The position numbers and the translations under genes are program-made. Shown piece by piece: positions 33,168 to 36,994 of a stretch of 64,000 nucleotides of DNA (its first letter is position 1; each line of letters opens with the position of its first letter). Source of the stretch: Gemmatimonadaceae bacterium (GTDB taxonomy: Bacteria; Gemmatimonadota; Gemmatimonadetes; Gemmatimonadales; Gemmatimonadaceae); NCBI GenBank assembly GCA_037721215.1, contig JBBJNV010000002.1, positions 1 through 64,000 on the forward strand. The letters are read 5' to 3'. The notes under the pieces are model-generated. The model saw only the letters and a program-made list of their open reading frames with translations, had not been told where the DNA came from and searched no databases.

Positions 33168-33172
33168 TGAAT

Positions 33173-34690
<1,518 letters not shown>

Positions 34691-34718: not shown

Positions 34719-34759
34719 GGGTCCGGTGGCGGGGTGTAACCCTTCCGCCGCTGGGACCC
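34719..34759 (+). terminator. Possible terminator hairpin after thiC
   Basis: GGGTCCGGTGGCGG (34719-34732) pairs with CCGCCGCTGGGACCC (34745-34759), about 13 base pairs with two G-T wobbles and one bulged G around a 12-base loop. It begins 29 bp after the thiC stop. There is no long T tract, so it would be an imperfect terminator. A second small palindrome (CCGCTGGGACCCAGCGG) overlaps its right arm. Confidence 0.45.
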
Positions 34760-35373
34760 AGCGGAGTTGCGGTAGACGAGGTGGGGTCAGCAGCTCGCGG
34801 GTCAAATACCTGCTTTCCATGCTCTTCGCTCTCGCCGGATGCCTGCCGGCAAGTGCCAGCACACCCCCGGCCGCCGTTCCTGTTCCCGCCCCGCTGAGCC
34901 AGGCCGACATCGACTATTTCGCGAATCACGAATTGATGGTACCCGTGGATGGTGTCGTGGCGGAGGCGTTGCGCGATTCGTTTAACGAAGCGCGCAGCGG
35001 CGGCAGGTATCACCGCGCAATCGACATTTTAGCGCCCCGCGAAACCCCGGTTGTGGCCGCGGCATCAGGCCGGGTGATCAAGCTTCGGCAGAACGCGGCC
35101 GGGGGAATCACTGCCTACCTCGTGGATGCTGAAGGGCGCTATATGTACTATTACGCGCATCTCGCGGGGTACTCGGATGAGATCACGGAAGGCCTCGAGG
35201 TGAAACAGGGGTTCGTGATCGGATTTGTGGGAACGAGCGGGAATGCGCCGCCGGATACTCCCCATCTTCATTTTCAGGCCATGCGACTCGCGGATGGCCA
35301 GAAGGATTGGTGGAATGGCACACCGGTTGACGTACGTCGGTTCATGACCAGGAGAGGGCAGGCACTGCAATGA
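34726..35373 (+). CDS. M23 family metallopeptidase, lipoprotein (LytM-like)
   Basis: Cell-wall endopeptidase domain at the C-terminus: H-R-A-I-D (first zinc ligands), G-R-V-I-K-L and H-L-H-F-Q near residue 190, so the catalytic set is intact. The membrane-targeting part R-V-K-Y-L-L-S-M-L-F-A-L-A-G-C is a lipobox signal. The start is unsure: GTG 34726 gives the basic N-region but lies inside the post-thiC hairpin; ATG 34819 would leave a very short signal. Its stop overlaps the next gene as ATGA, and the two are co-transcribed. Confidence 0.85.
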   Translation: MAGCNPSAAGTQRSCGRRGGVSSSRVKYLLSMLFALAGCLPASASTPPAAVPVPAPLSQADIDYFANHELMVPVDGVVAEALRDSFNEARSGGRYHRAIDILAPRETPVVAAASGRVIKLRQNAAGGITAYLVDAEGRYMYYYAHLAGYSDEITEGLEVKQGFVIGFVGTSGNAPPDTPHLHFQAMRLADGQKDWWNGTPVDVRRFMTRRGQALQ

Positions 35374-35723
35374 AAGGAAGCGAGCGTGCGGAATTAAGAG
35401 CTCAGGCGCATCATTTGAGCGCGACGGTCCATGTCGGGCAGCATGGATTGTCGCCCACGCTGATCGCATCGCTCGATGACGCATTGCGAACGCATGAGTT
35501 GGTGAAGGTGAAGCTTGGAAAGAATGCCGAGATGAAGCCCGGAGAGGCCGCTGCACAGTTGTCCGAGGCGACAGCGGCCGAGGTCATACAGGTTATTGGC
35601 CGGACGGCGACGTTCTACCGGGAAAATCCGGAATTGATCAAAAAGAAATTGGATCTTCGCGACGATGAGTCGCGGAACGAGACCGCCCCAGCTAGATCAC
35701 CGGGAAAAAGAGGTCGGCCGTGA
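35370..35723 (+). CDS. YhbY-like (CRM domain) RNA-binding protein
   Basis: A 117-aa protein whose first 95 residues are a CRM domain: L-R-A-Q-A-H-H-L, the G-Q-H-G-L-S loop, H-E-L-V-K-V-K-L-G and I-G-R-T-A-T-F-Y-R. YhbY associates with the pre-50S ribosome. A basic tail (P-G-K-R-G-R-P) is added. ATGA overlap with the M23 gene, and its stop overlaps the redoxin start as GTGA, so the three genes form one operon. Confidence 0.9.
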   Translation: MKGSERAELRAQAHHLSATVHVGQHGLSPTLIASLDDALRTHELVKVKLGKNAEMKPGEAAAQLSEATAAEVIQVIGRTATFYRENPELIKKKLDLRDDESRNETAPARSPGKRGRP

Positions 35724-36199
35724 GCGATCCAACGCGGATTTTCGAGGTAGGCGATTCCGTCGACGCCGGCTCCGGGTCAGAACATCCTGCCTTTGCCGCG
35801 ATCGCAGACGCGCGCGGAAAGAACGCGATCGTGCTCTACTTCCTTCGCGCATTTACATGAATGGGCTGCATCGCGCATGCCGCTCAGTTGGAGCGGGAGA
35901 GCAATCAGATCGGGCAGGCAGGAGCGAAAATCATCGCGCTTGGACCGGGCAGCGACGGCAGCGCAGAGCGCTTGTCCAAGCTACTCGGCCTGCACTTCCC
36001 GCTGTACGGTGACCGACGTGCAGCGGTATTTGGAGCGTTCGGCTTCCGCCGCGTGCTCGCCGTGGTGCAACAGAGCGGCGCGGCGGTCATCGATCGCGAT
36101 GGCGTGCTACGCTATATCCACCGCACAGGAAACTTCATGGATGCGCTGCACCTTGATGACATCATGAAGACACTGACCCCTAGTAGCGCTCGTAAATGA
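35720..36199 (+). CDS. Probable selenocysteine-containing redoxin (peroxiredoxin/thioredoxin-fold), UGA at codon 47
   Basis: Read through one in-frame TGA (35858-35860), the frame from GTG 35720 gives a complete 159-aa redoxin: strand N-A-I-V-L-Y-F-L-R-A-F-T, then U-M-G-C, helix I-A-H-A-A-Q-L, strand K-I-I-A-L-G, L-H-F-P-L-Y-G-D, and V-I-D-R-D-G-V-L-R-Y-I-H. In cysteine homologues I recall the motif as F-T-C-P-V-C, so TGA replaces exactly the first cysteine of C-x-x-C. Both sides of the TGA are coding, in frame and family-like. GTGA overlap with the yhbY-like gene supports the upstream start. Without recoding, only 112 residues from ATG 35861 would be made, lacking the first strand and active site. 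A nonsense mutation is the alternative. Confidence 0.8.
35861..35896 (+). promoter_or_regulatory. Candidate bacterial SECIS element
   Basis: Right after the TGA the mRNA can form a perfect 6-bp stem, CCGCTC (35880-35885) with GAGCGG (35891-35896), capped by the 5-base loop AGTTG. The loop starts 25 nt after the TGA and has G as its second base followed by U. These values lie in the range I recall for bacterial SECIS elements (short apical loop, G in the first two positions, about 16-37 nt from UGA). The lower part (GCAT/ATGC at 35868-35880) may extend the fold. Confidence 0.6.
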
Positions 36200-36599
36200 G
36201 AGTCACCCCATCGTCGACCACCCTCAGGGTATTCCGGTCAACTGAGCCATAGTAGGTTCGCCCTGTGTTGTCCTGAAAGGTGACCTCGCCGTTCCTGTAC
36301 TCGTAGTAACCGTTGGTCGAGCTCGAGCTGGTGTTGGCTGATCCGTTGACGATTTCGCGAACGATTCCCGCTTCACTGAACGTCCCGTCACGGCTGAACG
36401 TGAAATTGGCGTTCAACACCTCGAGCCGGTATCCAGGTTCCTGATAAAGCACCGCCGGCAACCTGCGTCCATTCACGGTTACCAGCTCATACGTTCCTGA
36501 CACAGAGTCTTGCCCGGGGCCGAGAGCGTCTCCGACACTGCAAGCGCCCAGGAGCACGATTCCGAGCAGCGCAACGCCCAACGACAATCTTTTTCGCAT
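36180..36599 (-). CDS. Hypothetical lipoprotein
   Basis: A 139-aa exported protein. M-R-K-R-L-S-L-G-V-A, lipobox V-L-L-G-A-C (Cys about 18), then a beta-rich domain: S-G-T-Y-E-L-V-T-V-N-G-R-R-L-P, F-T-F-S-R-D-G-T-F, Y-Y-E-Y-R-N-G-E-V and G-V-T-L-I-Y-E-R-Y. Similar small lipocalin-like lipoproteins are common in this kind of genome, but I cannot name a family. ATG 36599 has GGAG six nt upstream; ATG 36605 is too close to it. Its 3' end overlaps the redoxin gene by 20 nt. Confidence 0.75.
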   Translation of the reverse strand: MRKRLSLGVALLGIVLLGACSVGDALGPGQDSVSGTYELVTVNGRRLPAVLYQEPGYRLEVLNANFTFSRDGTFSEAGIVREIVNGSANTSSSSTNGYYEYRNGEVTFQDNTGRTYYGSVDRNTLRVVDDGVTLIYERY

Positions 36600-36994
36600 C
36601 TTCATCTCCGATGGTGAGCGACGGACGGGGCATGCCAGCGATGGTCGACAAGTCCTGATCAGGCAGGCCGCTTGCAGTCCTTCCGAACACATGCATGCCG
36701 AGCACTGTGGCATAGGAGGGGCCATCGCTAAGTCCGGGCGCGAGCATGTGCAAGCGACTGGATACAAACGAGTTGCGCGGCGCGGCCTGCCGCGTTGGGG
36801 ATACCGGTGTCATCCCGCCGGGACGCCAGAGTGTGCAGCGTGTCATCGCAATGGGACACTCGCTCCAGGACGACACGCGCTGCGTTGATTCCGCGAAGAA
36901 TCGTGTGCGGTAAGAAGGGGTGAACCCGGTTGATATTAGTGTCCACGGGTCTATTTTTCGCATACGACAGATCGTGGATCCCTGAGCCCATTCA
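36600..36994. other. Intergenic stretch, no supported gene
   Basis: About 395 bp between the divergent lipoprotein and ferredoxin genes. Short frames here have atypical composition and no recognisable domains. It should contain the two divergent promoters, but none stood out clearly. Confidence 0.5.

Follow-up and report, generated by a model that had tools for sequence, protein, structure and literature searches.

A Predicted Prx-Like UxxC Selenoprotein in a Gemmatimonadaceae Genome

Locus and Reading Frame

The window, a 64,000-nucleotide stretch of DNA from a Gemmatimonadaceae bacterium, contains a predicted gene for a Prx-like, redoxin-fold selenoprotein at 35720..36199 on the forward strand. 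The gene opens with a GTG start preceded by a Shine-Dalgarno-like AGAGG, ends at the TGA stop 36197-36199, and translates into 159 residues with a single internal TGA at codon 47 (35858-35860). Two Pfam domains span this TGA when it is read as Cys, namely AhpC-TSA (PF00578) at residues 29-133 (3.5e-12) and Redoxin (PF08534) at residues 22-136 (5.8e-8). Selenocysteine (Sec) is predicted at residue 47 (35858..35860, forward strand), the first position of a UxxC motif, on the basis of a TGA in all six loci and of Cys codons aligned in SelL-related proteins. The second residue of the motif, Cys50, is encoded by TGC at 35867..35869 on the same strand and forms an invariant alignment column. Residues 46-50 therefore read T46-U47-M48-G49-C50, within an extended motif TUMGCIAH. 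With an AhpC-TSA score of 46.8 bits against a gathering score of 26, and with Sec in UxxC (UMGC), the protein has the features by which Prx-like UxxC selenoproteins are recognized. The original prediction had described one redoxin frame interrupted by a single TGA and a T-U-M-G-C motif, and both descriptions are accurate to the base.

The selenoprotein gene follows a yhbY-like gene (CRS1_YhbY, CRM domain; 35370..35723, forward strand; Pfam PF01985, 1.2e-26), which in turn overlaps, as ATGA, with a peptidase M23 gene (34726..35373, forward strand; Pfam PF01551). The GTG start of the selenoprotein gene and the stop of the yhbY-like gene share the four bases GTGA (35720-35723), confirming the overlap with an operon neighbour that had been proposed. 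In the same-genus homologue (L024, genome G012), the yhbY-like gene is again the neighbour and is again adjoined by the M23 gene, the M23-yhbY pair being retained beside the selenoprotein gene. Within about 1.5 kb on each side of yhbY (less at one locus), no redoxin was detectable in 13 further congeneric species in which yhbY was located, which marks the selenoprotein gene as accessory.

Two further elements flank this stretch. A TPP riboswitch (33169-33287, forward strand, 63.3 bits) precedes an open reading frame (ORF) at 33278-34690 on the forward strand that resembles thiC by eye, upstream of the M23, yhbY-like, and selenoprotein genes. On the other side lies a convergent ORF (36180-36767, reverse strand), by eye a gene for a small lipoprotein, whose tail covers the final 20 bases of the selenoprotein gene.

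Selenocysteine Machinery of the Host

The host genome assembly comprises 3.50 Mb in 45 contigs and is 96.6% complete. The original prediction held that the host must possess selA, selB, selC, and selD, and all four are present: selA scores 527 bits, selB 341 bits (cut-off 242), selD 362 bits, and tRNA-Sec 70.5 bits, with the anticodon tca (UCA) assigned by ARAGORN. The host selD (contig C32 of the host genome G000; L017:1504-2538, forward strand) has an in-frame TGA of its own in the context G-U-A-S-K (RCAG-U-ASKMGPG), and its sequence predicts that SelD is itself a selenoprotein. The TGA-bearing selD is directly followed by selC. This arrangement suggests that Sec is really used in this genome. 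Formate dehydrogenase, sought as a second host selenoprotein, gave no match above the cut-off in the genome. A search around the window covered 199 genomes and found selA in 142, including all four that carry the selenoprotein gene (G000, G012, G175, and G186).

Homologues and Conservation of the In-Frame TGA

Of 18 other genomes of the genus, a stop-tolerant protein search found one with the gene (G012, 53% identity); it also recovered the gene in two genomes from another genus of the order, G175 with one copy and G186 with two. The G012 homologue appears to lie on the same contig as L029, from a Gemmatimonadaceae MAG (JACCRF010000022.1). A scan of an 84,980-species genome collection added one Gemmatimonadetes MAG (L030) and returned no homologue outside the phylum, using two short peptide patterns that could miss diverged members, and a plasmid collection gave no match. 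The gene is rare: among 395 genomes from the phylum, 4 have it at E <= 1e-12. One match of the stop-tolerant search, in G143, resembled a homologue and was rejected as a BCP-type TPGC peroxiredoxin without the TGA.

The five further loci, from four Gemmatimonadota assemblies, are 29-52% identical to the window protein. In all six loci, from five assemblies in total, TGA occupies the identical aligned codon and there are zero other stops; Cys50 and the QQSG segment at residues 117-120 are likewise invariant. Both before and after the TGA, third codon positions account for most of the differences between species. Comparison of the window gene with that of G012 gives an NG86 dN/dS of about 0.29 both upstream (0.54/1.85) and downstream (0.41/1.45), rough values given that dS is near saturation. 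The homologues thus show coding conservation on both sides of an in-frame UGA, as is required of a selenoprotein gene. Decay elsewhere in the gene, which had been named as an observation that would count against Sec, has left no sign in the close homologues, as these keep both the frame and the TGA.

Distant homologues from the same phylum, all of them SelL-related redox proteins, carry TGC or TGT at the position aligned with Sec (L064-L067 and L070-L072). Their sites read FLRHSGCIFC, FLRHHGCTFC, FFRFATCPFC, and FYRFATCPVC. No close homologue with Cys at site 47 was found, the Cys forms all being more distant relatives. The proposal that TGA stands where homologues have Cys is consequently upheld for the related SelL-related proteins and lacks a counterpart among close homologues. 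Otherwise, the family profile A1 reaches mostly BCP/PrxQ-type proteins with TPGC-like sites.

A Putative SECIS Hairpin

A putative bacterial SECIS hairpin is predicted to fold at 35880..35896 on the forward strand, with a stem formed by 35880-35885 and 35891-35896 around the loop AGUUG at 35886-35890 (CCGCUC-AGUUG-GAGCGG). The second base of this loop is G, and the loop starts 26 nt downstream of the UGA. These are features sought in a bacterial SECIS, namely a stem-loop just 3′ of the UGA whose small apical loop contains G, and the predicted element would be a putative binding site for SelB. Both loop and stem are kept in the six loci: AGUUG is unchanged in each, and the stem, 5-6 bp in length, reads CGUCC/GGACG in the other sequence group. 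At stem pairs 26/36 and 27/35 both partners are exchanged (C-G/U-A swaps), amounting to two double compensatory changes, and the codons at these pairs change as well, from GCU (Ala) to GUC (Val) and from GAG (Glu) to GGA (Gly).

Over these six loci, which represent about two sequence groups, the cells of the hairpin are paired in 88.9% of cases, compared with 31-61% for slid partners; the covariation score is reached by one of 500 shuffles. Relative to shuffles, the 48-nt region has an ordinary folding energy (z about -0.5), and a comparable hairpin follows 2.7% (at least 6 bp) to 8.8% (at least 5 bp) of all TGAs in the window. Thus, the hairpin is persuasive through its conservation and compensatory change alone.

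Decoding of UGA Codon 47

The Sec machinery, the TGA in six loci, the conserved hairpin, the Cys of distant relatives, and the lack of a conserved restart make it highly probable that UGA codon 47 is decoded as Sec, with insertion in vivo presumed from these features. The Cys equivalence, drawn from sequence comparison with distant relatives, is the weakest of these five lines. The apparently broken gene is almost certainly intact.

If the UGA were instead a real stop, a protein of 112 residues would start at ATG 35861 and the upstream 46 codons would be a leader or remnant. The ATG directly after the TGA does open a 112-aa ORF in the window, and GTG follows the TGA in the same-genus homologue. 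However, the codon after the TGA reads ATG, GTG, CAG, AGC, AGC, and CAG in the six loci and is therefore not conserved as a start, making the restart product unlikely; as the codon is no start in four of the six, the candidate restart at ATG 35861 was rejected. The upstream half also encodes the fold's first beta strand and shows purifying constraint, and a protein restarted there would be missing the first active-site residue as well as residues 36-46, so that true termination at codon 47 is very improbable. A pseudogene, or a sequencing or assembly error in which an ancestral Cys codon (TGC/TGT) became TGA by a point change, would fit the TGC and TGT found at this site in distant relatives, and TGC to TGA takes a single change. 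Yet the same TGA recurs in five independent assemblies at 29-52% identity, the frame is otherwise undamaged with third-position bias on both sides, and the Sec machinery is complete. On the strength of the recurrence across independent assemblies this explanation was rejected, and its probability is close to nil.

Conservation of the frame implies read-through of some kind, which would also be satisfied if UGA were read by suppression as another amino acid, such as Trp or Cys. Against this, TGA serves as the ordinary stop that ends both the selenoprotein gene and yhbY, the genome encodes SelB and a dedicated tRNA-Sec, the gene has a positioned hairpin, and relatives have Cys at the aligned residue; a reading other than Sec accordingly has only a slight chance of being correct. 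In Sec decoding, SelB and tRNA-Sec(UCA) would read the codon-47 UGA under the direction of the downstream hairpin.

Structure and Possible Chemistry

An AlphaFold2 model of the protein (pLDDT 85, pTM 0.83), obtained with the six-member alignment and with Sec given as Cys, places residue 47 between a strand (36-41) and a helix (48-59), the usual active-site position of the thioredoxin fold. The best PDB matches to the model are BCP/peroxiredoxins, and ResA follows further down. The fold is shared with BCP/PrxQ peroxiredoxin and ResA structures (PDB 3drn, 5enu, and 4nmu) at a TM-score on the query of 0.62-0.73, whereas identity is 19-26% and the window protein differs from the peroxiredoxins in having UxxC for TxxC and Ser for the active-site Arg.

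It is unlikely, though by a smaller measure than for the decoding alternatives above, that the selenoprotein works as a peroxiredoxin-type peroxidase with Cys50 or Sec47 as the peroxidatic residue, a distinction that concerns chemistry only and leaves Sec decoding unaffected. Prx/BCP proteins are the top matches by both fold and profile, and Cys50 aligns with the BCP-type peroxidatic Cys after one deletion. However, the canonical signature of TxxC or TxxU with a conserved Arg is not found, since T46 lies four residues before Cys50 rather than three, and in the 3drn alignment Ser119 occupies the position of the peroxiredoxin active-site Arg. With this signature absent, a UxxC selenol/thiol-disulfide oxidoreductase is preferred to a canonical peroxidase. 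The protein is thus reasonably likely to be a UxxC disulfide oxidoreductase, possibly peroxidase-like. Located just before the active-site helix, Sec47 would pair with Cys50 as U-x-x-C and attack the oxidized substrate, either a disulfide or a peroxide. Cys50 would then resolve the intermediate, and a thioredoxin-type system may re-reduce the enzyme.

Relation to Known Selenoprotein Families

SelL contains two Sec residues, in a UxxU motif. Position 50 of the window protein is TGC, encoding Cys, and is Cys in all six loci, so the UxxU arrangement is not found here. The window protein stays below the cut-off of every NCBIfam model. The best match is NF040769 (SelL-related redox protein), which is matched by six of the six members, with Cys or TGA at the corresponding position; however, the window protein scores 45.8 bits against a curated cut-off of 120 and is therefore not a member. 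NF053656 (TUGYCR thioredoxin-fold (seleno)protein) likewise combines T-U-x-x-C with a thioredoxin fold and weakly matches two of the six members (4.6e-5), whereas the window protein gives no match at E 0.01 and carries TUMGCIAH instead of TUGYCR.

Selenoproteins of the Prx-like and redoxin types with UxxC are already on record (PMC13188914; PMC9312934; PMC2398784; PMC1088965). Two reviews list as predicted families a "Prx-like thiol:disulfide oxidoreductase" (PF00578, UxxC/UxxU) and a "Redoxin family protein" (PF08534, UxxC; PMC13188914; PMC9312934), the former dating to papers of 2005-2006 (PMC1088965; PMC1794560). The Prx-like PF00578 selenoproteins resemble the window protein in having an AhpC-TSA domain, Sec at the first position of UxxC, a downstream bacterial SECIS, and Sec/Cys pairing within the family (PMC1088965; PMC1794560; PMC13188914). 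They differ in their hosts, of which those named include Geobacter, other Deltaproteobacteria, and marine metagenomes; the representative WP_010940744.1 was compared by description only. The "Redoxin family protein" selenoprotein (MBA3499694.1 in PMC9312934; HEU0032618.1 in PMC13188914), also compared by description only, shares the Redoxin fold and UxxC, and it is possibly the same family as the window protein.

The protein had been put forward as a probable new selenoprotein, which stands for the gene and fails for the kind, given the UxxC Prx-like and redoxin selenoproteins already catalogued. The window protein adds a member, probably of an unmodelled subfamily, to a known kind of selenoprotein. 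More tentatively, and with the balance slightly against it, this may be a distinct Gemmatimonadota subfamily of Prx-like UxxC proteins, in which the close homologues all have Sec and none Cys, the Prx catalytic signature is missing, and QQSG is invariant; such a subfamily may catalyse a redox reaction unlike those of known peroxidases or ResA-like reductases.

Routine annotation would truncate this gene or call it a pseudogene; the Sec reading rescues it and documents the use of Sec in Gemmatimonadota, a name absent from the two selenoproteome reviews searched for it. It also provides a small family with Sec in every close homologue found and a compact putative SECIS, while the picture of how Sec is encoded is unchanged.

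Further TGA-Bearing Redox Proteins

Several other redox proteins with an in-frame TGA were observed. A Prx-like candidate selenoprotein, FLRHFG-U-MFC, is encoded at L061 (G126:C68:1105-1380, reverse strand), where a strong hairpin (CGGUGC-AGGU-GCACCG) follows the TGA. Two SelL-related or AhpC-TSA-like genes, L068 (G149:C99) and L073 (G313:C52), each have just one in-frame TGA, located at the position of the first active-site Cys or adjacent to it, with the sites HAA-U-PFC and ADW-U-PFC, respectively; in L068 a small hairpin follows the TGA. Distant AhpC/TSA matches with one TGA also occur in G228, G233, G211, G307, G337, G329, G036, G102, G068, G180, and G235, and these may be further selenoproteins, such as TxxU peroxiredoxins.
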